Translations under genes and position numbers: made by a program | Notes under the pieces: model-generated | Told to the model about the DNA's origin: nothing | The model's database searches: none | What the model saw: the letters and a program-made list of their open reading frames with translations, nothing else | DNA from: a bacterium | GTDB taxonomy: Bacteria; Armatimonadota; Zipacnadia; Zipacnadales; UBA11051 | Direction of reading: 5' to 3' | Length of the DNA stretch: 32,970 nt | NCBI GenBank assembly: GCA_021372615.1 | Contig: JAJFUB010000142.1 | Coordinates: 1-32,970 of the forward strand | In this document: positions 6,690 to 11,804 of the stretch, in pieces | Layout of the letters: each line of letters opens with the position of its first letter | Numbering within the stretch: the stretch's first letter is position 1

Positions 6690-9383
6690 TTGCCGAAGAG
6701 CAACACCCCGCGGAACGGCGAAGACCGACTCCGCAAAGATCTTTTCGCCATCGCGTTTCTCACGTTGGGCGCGTTCGTCCTCGCGGCGCTGATCTTCAGC
6801 GCCCGTGGCGGCGTGCTGACCGAGGCCCTGGCCCATGGTCTGACCGTCCTGCTGGGCGTCGGGGCCTTCGGCGTCCCCATTGTCGCCTTCGCTCTGGCCG
6901 CCTTCTACGGCCTTGAACACCCGCCTGTCACCCCCACCCGCGCGCTCATCGGCATCGCCCTGCTGTTCGTGGCGGTGCTCACCGCCGTGCACATCCAGAC
7001 CCCCGCCCCGCTGCCGACCGACGACGCTGCCGCCCACGACACGCTCCGGGAGCGCTTCGCGTACCTCTTCGAGGAGGACACGCTGCTCAGCCGCGGCGGC
7101 TACCTGGGGGCCGGGTTCGCCTTCGTCTTCCTGACCACTGCGGGCCCGCTGGGGAGCTACATCATCCTGTGCGGCGTCGCAGCCATGGCGCTGGTGCTGA
7201 TCACCCAGGGCACGATGCCCCTGTTCATCGGCTGGTTGCGTCGCGCGGCCGGGCGCGGCTGGCAGGCGGCCAACGGGGGCCTCAACGGCCTGCAGCAGCG
7301 CCGCCGGCCGTCATCCCCCCGAGCGCCCAACAGCACCAAGCGAGGTGCTTCCCGCCGCGCCCCCCCGTCCGGGCCCATCGTGGACCTGGAAGATGACCTG
7401 CCCGAGCGCGTGCCCGAGCCCGACCCGGCCCCGGCTGAGCCGGAGCCGCCGGTCCCCGAGCCGCTGCATGGCACCTCAGCCACGCCGCTCGCGCCTGCCC
7501 CTCAGGCGCCGCCCGCCCGGGAGGCCCCCGCCGGCGCCGTTCCCGACACCGACCCCCTGCCGGGCAACCATACCGAAGCCTCGGCCCGGGGTGGGCCGGC
7601 CTCGGTAGCAGTGATGGAGGCGCCCACGAAGGCCAAGAGCGCCCCGCGCGGCAAGGCGACCCAGCCTACCTTGCTTTCCGGCGACGCGCTCTACCAGCTC
7701 CCCCCCACCAGCCTCATGACGGAGTACCCTGAGGAGGAGGAGAGCAAGGAAGACCGGGCCATCGCCGCCGAGAACATCATCAAGCTGGAAGACACCCTCG
7801 AGAGCTTTGGCATCCACGCGAAGGTGACCCACTACGAGCGCGGGCCGGTGCTGACGCGCTACGAGGTGGAGCCGGAGCGCGGCATCCGCGTCAACCAGGT
7901 GGCCCGCCACACCGATGACCTGCGCATGGCCATGGCGGCCTGGGACGTGCGCGTGGAGGCCCCCATCCCTGGCAAGTCGGCCGTGGGCATTGAGGTCCCC
8001 AACAAGAAGAAGACCATCGTGGGCCTGCGCTCGCTCATCGAGTGCCAGGACTTCCGCGGCCACAGCTCCTCGTTGGCGGTCGCGCTGGGCCGGGACATCG
8101 CCGGCTACCCGGTCGTCTGCGACCTCGTGCAGATGCCCCACCTGCTCGTCGCCGGGGCCACCAACGCCGGCAAGAGCGTCTGCCTGCACTCGATCATCGT
8201 CAGCCTGCTCATGAGCGCCCGCCCCAGCGAAGTGCAGCTCATCATGATTGACCCCAAACGGGTCGAACTGAACCTGTACGAGGGCATCCCGCACCTCATG
8301 TCGCCGGTCGTGCACACCGTTCAGCAGGCCTCGGATGTGCTGCGCAAGGCCATCCGCGAGATGGAGAAGCGCTACGACCAGTTCGCGCGGGTCAGCGCGG
8401 CCAACATCGCCGAATACAACTTCTTCACCGCCGGGGCGCAGTTGGCTGCCGGACGCCAGGAGATCGGCCTGGACACGCTCCAGAAGCGCCTGAAGCTCGA
8501 CGAGTCCAAGTCGCGCCGCCTGATGGACATGATGGAATGGGGCGGCGTGGTGCTGGAGAACGTGGAGAAGGACGAGATGTGGCGCGTCTGCATTGACGAG
8601 AACGACGCCCGCACCGTGCCGCTCCCGCGTGTCGTGATCGTCATTGACGAGTTGGCCGACCTGATGATGCAGGCCCGCGCGGAGTTTGAGTTCAGCATCT
8701 GCCGCATCGCCCAACTCGCTCGCGCCACCGGCATCCACCTGGTCATCGCCACCCAGCGCCCCTCGGTCAAGGTGGTCACCGGCAACATCAAGGCCAATAT
8801 CCCCTCCCGCATCGCGTTGTCGGTGGCGTCGCAGGTAGACTCGCGCACGATCCTCGACGGCATCGGCGCCGAACGCCTCATCGGCCGGGGCGACATGCTC
8901 TACGCGCCCATTGACGCCAGCAAGCCCCGCCGCGCGCAAGGCGCGTTCGTGTCACGCCAGGAGATCGAGACCATCGCCGAGTTCTGCCGCCGTCAGGGCG
9001 AGCCGGCCTACTCGATCATTCCCGAAGTGCCCGAGGAAGAGGACTACTCCGGCGACGCCGAGCCCAGCGACGCCCTCTATGCCGACGCCGTGCGGTATGT
9101 TGTGGCCGAGGGCGAGGCTTCCGTCTCGATGATCCAGCGCCGCTTCAAGGTCGGCTACGCGCGCGCCGGGCGACTGATTGACATGATGGCCCAACGGGGC
9201 GTCGTCGGCCCCAGTCAGGGCTCCAAGCCGCGCCAGGTGCTCATCGGCACGGCCTTTGTGGACGCCGCCCTGGGCCTGGCGCCCACCGCGACCGAGGCCC
9301 CCACCTCGGCCTTCGACGACCTGCCGGAGCCCAAGCTGGACGAAGACGAAGCCGAGTTGCTCGAGCAGGCGGACGACGACTAG
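6690..9383 (+). CDS. ftsK: FtsK/SpoIIIE-type DNA translocase
   Basis: 897-aa membrane-anchored ATPase that pumps DNA during chromosome segregation. About four transmembrane helices occupy residues 18-185. A Pro/Ala-rich linker follows to about 340. The motor has Walker A G489-A-T-N-A-G-K495-S and Walker B VVIVID653-E654, with LARATGIHLVIATQRPS after it. The C-terminal winged-helix gamma domain (about 800-850) contains IQRRFKVGYARAGRLIDMM. An unusual insertion of about 65 residues (578-645) between IAEYN and the Walker B strand carries LQKRLKL...RRLMDMMEWGGVV, which resembles the gamma domain itself. The start is TTG at 6690, supported by GGAGG 10 nt upstream and a promoter with a perfect -10. 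No in-frame ATG precedes it. Confidence 0.93.
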   Translation: MPKSNTPRNGEDRLRKDLFAIAFLTLGAFVLAALIFSARGGVLTEALAHGLTVLLGVGAFGVPIVAFALAAFYGLEHPPVTPTRALIGIALLFVAVLTAVHIQTPAPLPTDDAAAHDTLRERFAYLFEEDTLLSRGGYLGAGFAFVFLTTAGPLGSYIILCGVAAMALVLITQGTMPLFIGWLRRAAGRGWQAANGGLNGLQQRRRPSSPRAPNSTKRGASRRAPPSGPIVDLEDDLPERVPEPDPAPAEPEPPVPEPLHGTSATPLAPAPQAPPAREAPAGAVPDTDPLPGNHTEASARGGPASVAVMEAPTKAKSAPRGKATQPTLLSGDALYQLPPTSLMTEYPEEEESKEDRAIAAENIIKLEDTLESFGIHAKVTHYERGPVLTRYEVEPERGIRVNQVARHTDDLRMAMAAWDVRVEAPIPGKSAVGIEVPNKKKTIVGLRSLIECQDFRGHSSSLAVALGRDIAGYPVVCDLVQMPHLLVAGATNAGKSVCLHSIIVSLLMSARPSEVQLIMIDPKRVELNLYEGIPHLMSPVVHTVQQASDVLRKAIREMEKRYDQFARVSAANIAEYNFFTAGAQLAAGRQEIGLDTLQKRLKLDESKSRRLMDMMEWGGVVLENVEKDEMWRVCIDENDARTVPLPRVVIVIDELADLMMQARAEFEFSICRIAQLARATGIHLVIATQRPSVKVVTGNIKANIPSRIALSVASQVDSRTILDGIGAERLIGRGDMLYAPIDASKPRRAQGAFVSRQEIETIAEFCRRQGEPAYSIIPEVPEEEDYSGDAEPSDALYADAVRYVVAEGEASVSMIQRRFKVGYARAGRLIDMMAQRGVVGPSQGSKPRQVLIGTAFVDAALGLAPTATEAPTSAFDDLPEPKLDEDEAELLEQADDD

Positions 9384-9447: not shown

Positions 9448-10476
9448 ATGTCTGAACCCACCGCCGACGCCCGCGCGACGACCGCCTCCGAGGCTGCCCC
9501 CGGGGGCCGCAAGCACCGTCGCAACACCCTCAATGACCTCACCGGGCGGGACTGGATCAAGTTCACAAAGTCCTGGTTCATCTGCGACTCGCGTCGCTAT
9601 CTGAAGAACAAGGCCACGGAGCTGCACCCGGCGCGCTACCCTGAGGAAATGGTGAGCGAGTTCATCCAGTTCTTCACCAAACCGGGCGAATGGGTGCTGG
9701 ACCCCTTCTGCGGCAGCGGCGCCACGCTGGTCGCCTGCCAGGAGACAGGCCGGCATGGTGTCGGGATCGAGCTATCGGCGGAGTACGCGCAGGTAGCTCG
9801 CCGGCGGCTCCTGTCCCTGGATTGCGAGACAGAGTGGCACGTCCTGGAAGGCGATTCCCGCGACGTCTCCTCACTGCTGGGCAGTGCGGGCTTCCAGCCC
9901 GCCAAAGGCCAGGAGACGAGCGACTCAGGACGGGCTGGAAGCCCGCACTACGCCGAGGCAATCGGCGAGTTGGATACCCCGCCCGGTCTCCCGGCCTCCC
10001 CTCTCCCCCACCAGTACGACTTCATCATCACCTCCCCGCCCTATTTCGACATGCTCCGCAAGAGCCGGGGCGGGGTGGACTCCGCCGCCAAGAAGCGTGC
10101 CCGCGCCGGCCTGGGCACCCACTATGGCGATGATCGCCGTGACCTGGGCAACATCACCAGCTACGAAGACTTCGTGGAAGCCCTGGGCCTGATCTTCGAC
10201 GACATGCACGACCTGCTGCGGCCGGGGCGCTACCTGGTCGCCGTGATCCAGAATCTGCGTGACACCGACGGCGAGGTGCGGCCGTTGGCGTGGGACCTTG
10301 CCCGCCGCCTGTCGCAGCGTTTCAGCTTCCAGGGCGAACGCGTCTGGTGCCAGAACAGCAAGCCCCTGGGCATCTGGGGCTATCCGACCGTGTTTGTCCC
10401 CAACGTGCACCACCATTACTGCCTGATCTTCCGCGTCAGGCCGGACGCCTTTGCCGGGGGTAGAGAGCACCGATGA
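9448..10476 (+). CDS. orphan DNA methyltransferase (N6-adenine or N4-cytosine)
   Basis: 342-aa S-adenosylmethionine-dependent methyltransferase. The AdoMet motif D85-P-F-C-G-S-G91 follows HPARYPEEMV, and the catalytic motif is T195-S-P-P-Y199, so the order is motif X, I, then IV. No separate long target-recognition domain is evident. An extra segment at about residues 146-168 (SAGFQPAKGQE...RAGSPHY) is encoded by a 19-bp inverted repeat inserted in frame (9883-9949) in the loop between motifs I and IV. Its 3' end overlaps rimO by ATGA, so the two are translationally coupled. No restriction endonuclease is nearby, so it is probably a solitary methylase. Target sequence unknown; an RNA substrate is a less likely alternative. 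Confidence 0.85.
   Translation: MSEPTADARATTASEAAPGGRKHRRNTLNDLTGRDWIKFTKSWFICDSRRYLKNKATELHPARYPEEMVSEFIQFFTKPGEWVLDPFCGSGATLVACQETGRHGVGIELSAEYAQVARRRLLSLDCETEWHVLEGDSRDVSSLLGSAGFQPAKGQETSDSGRAGSPHYAEAIGELDTPPGLPASPLPHQYDFIITSPPYFDMLRKSRGGVDSAAKKRARAGLGTHYGDDRRDLGNITSYEDFVEALGLIFDDMHDLLRPGRYLVAVIQNLRDTDGEVRPLAWDLARRLSQRFSFQGERVWCQNSKPLGIWGYPTVFVPNVHHHYCLIFRVRPDAFAGGREHR
9883..9949. repeat. palindromic repeat element P2, in frame inside the methyltransferase gene
   Basis: A perfect 19-bp inverted repeat (9883-9901 with 9931-9949, arm AGTGCGGGCTTCCAGCCCG) has a 29-nt spacer. It keeps the reading frame open and adds the peptide SAGFQPA...RAGSPHY to the methyltransferase, in a loop that is not part of any catalytic motif. 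Confidence 0.85.
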
Positions 10477-11804
10477 GCAATGACATCAAGGTCGCCCTGG
10501 TATCGTTGGGGTGCCCCAAGAACCTGGTCGACTCCGAGCACATCCTGGGGGCCCTCACGGCCCAGGGCTACACGATCGTCGAGGAGAACGAGCAGGCGGA
10601 CGTCATCATCGTCAACACCTGCGCCTTCATCCGGCCGGCGGAGGAAGAGGCGGTCGAGGCGCTGCTGGACCTGGCGGACCTCAAGCAGGGCCAGGCGAAG
10701 GCGCTCATCTGCGCGGGCTGTCTGACGCAGCGCCGCGGGAGCGACCTGCTGACGGCCATGCCGGAGGTGGATGCCTTCACGGGCGTTGGCGTCGGGGCAC
10801 GGATGCCCGAGGTGGTCGAGCGCGTCCTGGCCGGGGAGCGCCTGTACCTGGAGTCCGACCTGGGTTGCCTCGAGACGGCCGCTTCGCCCCGCTGGCGGTC
10901 GGCCCCTGAGTGGTCGGCCTACCTGAAGATCGCTGATGGCTGCTCCAACCGCTGCTCTTACTGCACCATCCCGGACATCCGCGGGGAGTACCGCAGCCGT
11001 CCCCCAACTGACATCGCCGACGAGTTCGGGCAGTTGGTCGCGGGCGGGGTCCGCGAGGTCTGCCTCATCGCGCAGGACACCACGATGTACGGCTACGACC
11101 TATCGGAGCGCGTGAATCTGGCCGACTTGTTGCACCGTCTGGCCGAGGTGCCCTTCGACGGGTGGGTGCGCGTGATGTACATGCACCCCGAGCACGTGTC
11201 CGACGCGCTGCTGGAGGCGATGGCCGCGCTGCCCGTTGTCGTCGCCTACCTCGACATCCCGCTGCAGCATGTCTCCAAGAGTGTCCTGTACCGCATGGGA
11301 CGGCGGGGCACGAAGGATGACTGCCTGGAGCTCGTCCGCCGCGTCCGCAGCTTCATGCCGGAGGCCGCGATCCGCACCACCTTCATGACCGGCTTCCCCC
11401 AGGAGACCGAGGGCGACTTCGAGGCCCTCCTCGACTTCCTGCAGGAGGCCCGCCTGGATCGTGTGTCGGCCTTCCGCTTCTGGCCCGAGGGGGGCACGCC
11501 GGCGGCGGTCATGCCCAACCAGATCCCCGACGAGGTGCGCGATGAGCGGTTGGCGCGCCTCCTCGCGGTCCAGGAGATGATCTCCCTGGAGAAGAACCGC
11601 GAGTTCGTGGGGCACCGCCTCCGGGTGCTGGTGGAAGAGCAGGTCGAGGGTCTCTGGAAGGGCCGGTCGTATCGCGATGCTCCCGAGATTGACGGCGAGG
11701 TCAAGATCATCGTCCCGCCCGGAGGCGCCGCCCCGGCCGCCGGGCAGTTTGTGGAGGTCGAGATCACGCGCGCGGAAGTGCACGACGTGGAGGGCACGCT
11801 CTAG
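10473..11804 (+). CDS. rimO: ribosomal protein S12 methylthiotransferase RimO
   Basis: 443-aa radical-SAM enzyme that adds a methylthio group to an aspartate of ribosomal protein S12. The N-terminal UPF0004 domain begins KVALVSLGCPKNLVDSE, with cluster ligands C14, C50 (VNTCAF) and C83 (CAGC). The radical-SAM motif is C157-S-N-R-C161-S-Y-C164, in the DGCSNRCSYCTIP context. The C-terminal TRAM domain (about 375-440) binds the substrate. SLGCPKN with VDSE distinguishes RimO from the tRNA enzyme MiaB. Length is typical. The ATG at 10473 overlaps the methyltransferase stop; an SD-like GGGGGTAGAGAG lies upstream. Confidence 0.96.
   Translation: MSNDIKVALVSLGCPKNLVDSEHILGALTAQGYTIVEENEQADVIIVNTCAFIRPAEEEAVEALLDLADLKQGQAKALICAGCLTQRRGSDLLTAMPEVDAFTGVGVGARMPEVVERVLAGERLYLESDLGCLETAASPRWRSAPEWSAYLKIADGCSNRCSYCTIPDIRGEYRSRPPTDIADEFGQLVAGGVREVCLIAQDTTMYGYDLSERVNLADLLHRLAEVPFDGWVRVMYMHPEHVSDALLEAMAALPVVVAYLDIPLQHVSKSVLYRMGRRGTKDDCLELVRRVRSFMPEAAIRTTFMTGFPQETEGDFEALLDFLQEARLDRVSAFRFWPEGGTPAAVMPNQIPDEVRDERLARLLAVQEMISLEKNREFVGHRLRVLVEEQVEGLWKGRSYRDAPEIDGEVKIIVPPGGAAPAAGQFVEVEITRAEVHDVEGTL

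Follow-up and report, generated by a model that had tools for sequence, protein, structure and literature searches.

The window, the whole 32,970-nucleotide stretch of DNA that was analysed, encodes a complete FtsK of 897 residues in the open reading frame at positions 6690–9383 of the forward strand. The alpha (E-value 1e-29), beta (FtsK_SpoIIIE, 6e-59), and gamma (FtsK_gamma, 3.5e-32) subdomains were all identified in the expected order in a Pfam scan, and the N-terminus has a weak match to FtsK_4TM (E-value 0.25). The segments of the gene that are discussed below are located in the window as follows:

6690..9383 (+): ftsK, with TTG start as called; N-terminal region, linker, alpha, beta (RecA motor), and C-terminal gamma (Pfam and PDB matches)
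7698..8003 (+): FtsK alpha subdomain, residues 337–438 (Pfam)
8154..8177 (+): Walker A, GATNAGKS, residues 489–496 (sequence)
8406..8447 (+): predicted helix 1 of the winged helix, running on from the 'NIAEYN' helix of the motor, residues 573–586 (AlphaFold2 motor model)
8421..8621 (+): inserted gamma-like winged helix, residues 578–644 (loop lengths, profiles, and predicted fold)
8469..8492 (+): predicted helix 2, LDTLQKRL, residues 594–601 (AlphaFold2 motor model)
8502..8540 (+): predicted helix 3, the equivalent of the recognition helix, ESKSRRLMDMMEW, residues 605–617 (AlphaFold2 motor model)
8577..8588 (+): predicted wing strand, MWRV, residues 630–633 (AlphaFold2 motor model)
8631..8651 (+): Walker B strand, VVIVIDE, residues 648–654, intact (sequence)
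9063..9245 (+): ordinary C-terminal gamma, residues 792–852, with the QRRFKVGYARAGR signature (Pfam, E-value 3.5e-32)

The nearest solved structures are the FtsK motors of Escherichia coli and Pseudomonas aeruginosa (2iut and 2ius, E-value 3e-110 or better). As in the FtsK/SpoIIIE translocases of these bacteria (2iuu and 6t8b), the alpha, beta, and gamma subdomains are accompanied by intact Walker A, Walker B, and arginine-finger positions, and equivalents of R620, R632, S634, V635, G640, K643, and R661 are found in the motor, where the numbering of catalytic and DNA-contact positions follows PMC7321959. The model of the motor superposes on chain A of 6t8b over 392 of 397 residues with a Z-score of 43. 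The C-terminal gamma retains its signature and, judging from that, can perform the ordinary function of the domain. The position of K657, a loop I DNA contact in P. aeruginosa FtsK, is occupied by glutamine in the window protein (SQVDSRT compared with SKIDSRT, positions 8829–8849).

The gene that follows ftsK (9448–10476, forward strand) encodes a DNA-methylase-like protein in which the match to N6_N4_Mtase is limited to residues 38–117 (E-value 1.8e-25), and which is possibly a modified or partial methyltransferase. A gene for a MiaB/RimO-type radical SAM protein (10473–11804) is also located downstream. From its gene context, the window ftsK looks like an ordinary chromosomal ftsK.

Position and distribution of the insertion

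In the beta motor, the insertion follows the 'NIAEYN' helix and precedes the Walker B strand VVIVIDELADLMM. The original prediction had placed it at residues 578–645 (positions 8421–8625), which maps correctly onto the 897-residue reading frame, and had described it as absent from usual FtsK motors, which the loop lengths bear out. Counted from the asparagine of 'EYN' up to Walker B, the loop has 72 residues in all six testable members of the family that includes the window genome, as opposed to 21–25 residues in 74 other FtsKs, mainly from Ignavibacteria, Bacteroidota, Calditrichota, and Bacilli. The loop before Walker B has 13–29 residues in a sample of 38 genomes from across the phylum Armatimonadota. 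It is also short in the sister FtsKs of the class that were read directly, so that the net gain relative to them is approximately 50 residues. The longest such loop outside the insert-bearing family, with 29 residues, belongs to a member of the class (L160 in genome G042). The FtsK matches shown by phmmer break at the same spot, from residue ~584 to residues ~636–645.

A query spanning the junctions aligned through the insert solely in genomes G000, G001, G002, G004, G005, and G006. These six are all the testable genomes of one GTDB family of Zipacnadia-type Armatimonadota and belong to three genera; the contig of the seventh member, G003, ends at Walker B, and this genome was left out. Among the best-scoring matches listed for the phylum Armatimonadota (291 genomes, 271 of them with an FtsK match), none from a further genome extended across the insert. 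Conservation across the phylum, raised together with the original prediction, is therefore restricted to one family among the matches listed. The loops were short in the other FtsKs that came from a scan of contigs with patterns specific to the family. The class Zipacnadia appears in PMC10290634, and named relatives are metagenome-assembled Armatimonadetes or Candidatus Zipacnadia (L042–L046). A literature search, which is weak evidence, found neither a second FtsK gamma domain nor a domain insertion in an FtsK motor among the papers covered.

Every genome seen with the insert is a metagenome assembly, which speaks for an artefact of assembly or reading frame; however, the insert recurs in six separate assemblies, spread over three genera, in diverged form and without stops or frameshifts. 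These independent copies refute the artefact, the probability of which is practically negligible.

The genome contains a second FtsK-like protein on contig C41 (L122:5181–7376, forward strand), with an N-terminal TIR domain (TIR_2, E-value 3.4e-21), no match to FtsK_4TM, and a C-terminus with two gamma domains in tandem; its loop before Walker B is short, as is normal. The composition of the contig fits the genome (tetranucleotide r of 0.987), no plasmid record covers 80% of it, and no second FtsK match was found in other genomes of the class. The protein may be a defence-type TIR-translocase fusion.

Relationship of the insert to the FtsK gamma domain

The segment LQKRLKL...RRLMDMMEWGGVV of the insert had been proposed to align with IQRRFKV...GRLIDMMAQRGVV of the C-terminal gamma; the match is real and runs in a single gap-free register. 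When the inserts were scanned individually against Pfam, FtsK_gamma was matched by all six of them, with a best E-value of 7.3e-6, and the next-best family by two, with a best E-value of 0.017. The insert of the window matches FtsK_gamma (PF09397) with an E-value of 7e-4 and 19.8 bits. Because this is under the gathering score of 30.6 bits, the insert is called gamma-derived here rather than a gamma domain proper. Alignment of the inserts with 73 C-terminal gammas by hhalign has a probability of 96.5% and a score of 50.1 over 60 columns, whereas the highest score among 200 column shuffles is 17.5. When the register was fixed over 50 residues without gaps, the six inserts scored against the gamma profile with z-values of 6.2–7.9 over shuffles of their own composition. 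The insert of G002, used as a query, also matched the C-terminal gamma of its own protein (E-value 6.8e-4). A chance match is ruled out by the shuffles, and the profile comparisons indicate that the insert is homologous to the gamma winged helix of FtsK.

The insert alone was predicted by AlphaFold2, from an alignment of six sequences without gamma rows, with a pLDDT of 84.9 and the order helix-strand-helix-helix-strand. Within the motor, predicted from 34 sequences, the pLDDT across the insert is 81–94. In this model, a helix that belongs to the motor (residues 573–586) doubles as helix 1 of the winged helix, the fold of which therefore begins a few residues ahead of the insertion. A disordered loop is ruled out, since the insert is predicted to be ordered both alone and in the context of the motor. 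The top six Foldseek matches in the PDB are all gamma domains (2ve8, 2j5p, and 2j5o, TM-scores 0.60–0.77), and so are the top three of VIA-align (2j5p, 2ve8, and 2ve9, Z-scores 9.6, 8.9, and 8.8). Other winged helices are close behind with Z-scores of 7–8.8, and the fold alone would therefore not name the family; the sequence does. An unrelated winged helix of an IclR-, MarR-, or Zalpha-like type, captured by the motor and resembling gamma through convergence of fold, could account for these additional matches. Its probability is very low, because only FtsK_gamma is matched by all six inserts in Pfam, gamma domains are at the top of both fold lists, and the gap-free sequence match to gamma extends over approximately 50 residues.

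The predicted structure of the insert has a winged-helix fold of the gamma type. Profiles, AlphaFold2, and the fold searches lend good support to the proposal of a gamma-like winged helix within the motor: a winged-helix match was found, and no disordered loop was predicted. A folded insertion derived from gamma is near certain by sequence.

In a tree computed from 50 columns, with long branches, the inserts group together, apart from all C-terminal gammas. This is consistent with a single insertion event in the ancestor of the family, by copying of a gamma. The inserts score about equally against gammas of Zipacnadia and Ignavibacteria, and similarity scores do not tell the source; the C41 protein, a candidate source, gives scores similar to those of other gammas. 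A recent copy of the gamma of the same protein is unsupported. An insert resembles the gamma of its own protein no more than it does other gammas, which indicates that the duplication is old or that its trace was erased by evolution of the surface.

Contact surface of the insert and selection acting on it

In gamma, KOPS and XerD are bound by the same surface, which is formed by helices 2 and 3 at their ends and by the connecting loop, and R1289 of E. coli is the critical XerD contact (PMC5052618). The residues of the inserts were judged against these published contacts, the KOPS positions R1300, E1303, and E1306 (PMC2680272), and S766 of P. aeruginosa gamma (PMC9764985). In the inserts, the position of R1289 is occupied by lysine or glutamate, that of R1292 by lysine, glycine, or aspartate, and that of N1296 by serine, glycine, arginine, or glutamine. 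The G1294-Y1295 pair, invariant in gamma, is replaced by aspartate or serine followed by glutamate or aspartate. The position equivalent to S766 is acidic (aspartate or glutamate) in four of the six inserts, and the GP of the gamma wing is lost. Q1288 is retained in five inserts, R1300 in four, with histidine in the other two, and the glutamate of position 1306 in four. Position 1303 is aspartate in all six, as it is in the C-terminal gamma. The 61-residue winged helix has a net charge of −3 to −7 in the inserts, negative in all six, whereas that of their own C-terminal gammas is +2 to +5.

The insert thus resembles FtsK gamma (PF09397; 2j5p, 2ve8, and 2ve9 with KOPS) in its predicted fold, sequence homology, conserved core, and helix 3 aspartate. 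It differs from gamma in being internal, between two motor elements instead of at the C-terminus on a flexible linker; in the replacement of the XerD patch, most of the KOPS contacts, and the GP wing; and in its negative charge. Of the surface that contacts XerD and KOPS (the RQFRIGYNR region, R1300, and E1303), the inserts retain only Q1288, R1300, and the aspartate of position 1303, the first two of them not in every insert. The inserted copy lacks most of the DNA-reading and XerD-activating surface and has probably taken on another use, and we infer that DNA reading was lost.

Selection was compared by a simple counting method, in which several dS values are near saturation. In five pairs, the dN/dS of the insert is 0.25–0.50, compared with 0.02–0.16 for the C-terminal gamma and 0.02–0.12 for two stretches of the motor core. 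The insert is under purifying selection that is several-fold weaker than that on the neighbouring domains. Its mean identity is 0.54, in comparison to 0.77–0.85 for the surrounding motor, yet the core and some positions outside it (A31, D83, and R85 in alignment A1) are invariant in the inserts. The recognition helix varies between genera in the insert and is nearly invariant in the C-terminal gamma.

The original prediction regarded the insert as a second DNA-reading module that could alter the recognition of polar sequences such as KOPS. In such a motor, up to six extra winged helices fixed to the beta ring would touch DNA near the pore and modify or extend the recognition of polar sequences, with altered specificity. 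The gamma fold and homology of the insert and the partial retention of R1300, E1303 (as aspartate), and E1306 speak for this reading; however, the replacement of the remaining contacts apart from Q1288, often by acidic residues, the loss of the GP wing, the negative net charge, and the dN/dS several-fold above that of the C-terminal gamma speak against it. In a domain that reads bases, conservation of the recognition helix would be expected, and the variation of the helix in the insert counts further against the reader. The proposal as a whole is only partly supported; its DNA-reading part is unsupported, and a second reader is rather unlikely.

The weaker constraint on the insert also fits a tolerated relic, an intragenic copy of gamma in a loop that accepts insertions, selected only for folding and for not disturbing the motor. 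The faster evolution of the insert than of the motor around it and the variable length of the same loop elsewhere agree with a relic. By contrast, all six testable genomes, which span three genera, have kept the insert intact and of equal length, although synonymous changes are near saturation in most pairs; the dN/dS indicates purifying selection, and the invariant positions include some outside the core. A relic is unlikely, albeit with a real share of the probability.

Putative role of the inserted gamma copy

The explanation that we favour, with modest confidence, is that the gamma duplicate was recruited as a structural or docking module anchored in the ring and making contacts with protein. 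In the ancestor of one Zipacnadia-type family, a copy of the gamma winged helix would have entered, in frame, the loop that leads from the NIAEYN helix to Walker B, with its helix 1 becoming fused to this motor helix; neither the motor nor the C-terminal gamma was disrupted. The copy has retained its hydrophobic core and predicted fold; the surface that in ordinary gamma binds KOPS and XerD (the end of helix 2, the turn, the start of helix 3, and the wing) has been replaced; and weaker, yet purifying, selection has acted on it since. Each subunit may display one folded winged helix fixed to the beta ring. Through contacts with an adjacent subunit, with the mobile gamma at the C-terminus, or with a partner protein, this helix could tune the assembly of the ring or directional loading. 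The role in protein contacts follows mainly from the loss of the known binding surface. Counted against a contact module are the retained R1300 and aspartate at position 1303, which might still touch DNA.

FtsK is among the most conserved DNA motors and is the fastest known translocase; its gamma is normally tethered outside the ring. Unlike other FtsKs, which have a loop without a winged helix before Walker B, the window FtsK has one there that is predicted to be ordered. In TrwB-type coupling proteins, an all-alpha domain is inserted between Walker A and Walker B of a RecA-type hexameric DNA motor, and the window FtsK is similar in having a helical domain between the Walker motifs of a hexameric motor. 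However, no gamma-like character is known for the TrwB domain, and TrwB represents another branch of the FtsK/HerA superfamily.

The position of the insert indicates that a folded domain can be accommodated in the loop ahead of Walker B, which may offer a natural site for fusing engineered modules to the motor. It is improbable that the protein is a dual-reader FtsK, in which the mobile C-terminal gamma is joined by six gamma-derived winged helices that are built rigidly into the beta ring and either read DNA or hold this gamma. If this were the case, sequence sensing would be tied directly to the ATPase cycle and not just to loading. The gamma copy within the ATPase core, kept in three genera, represents a natural experiment on the coupling of sequence sensing, ring assembly, and translocation.
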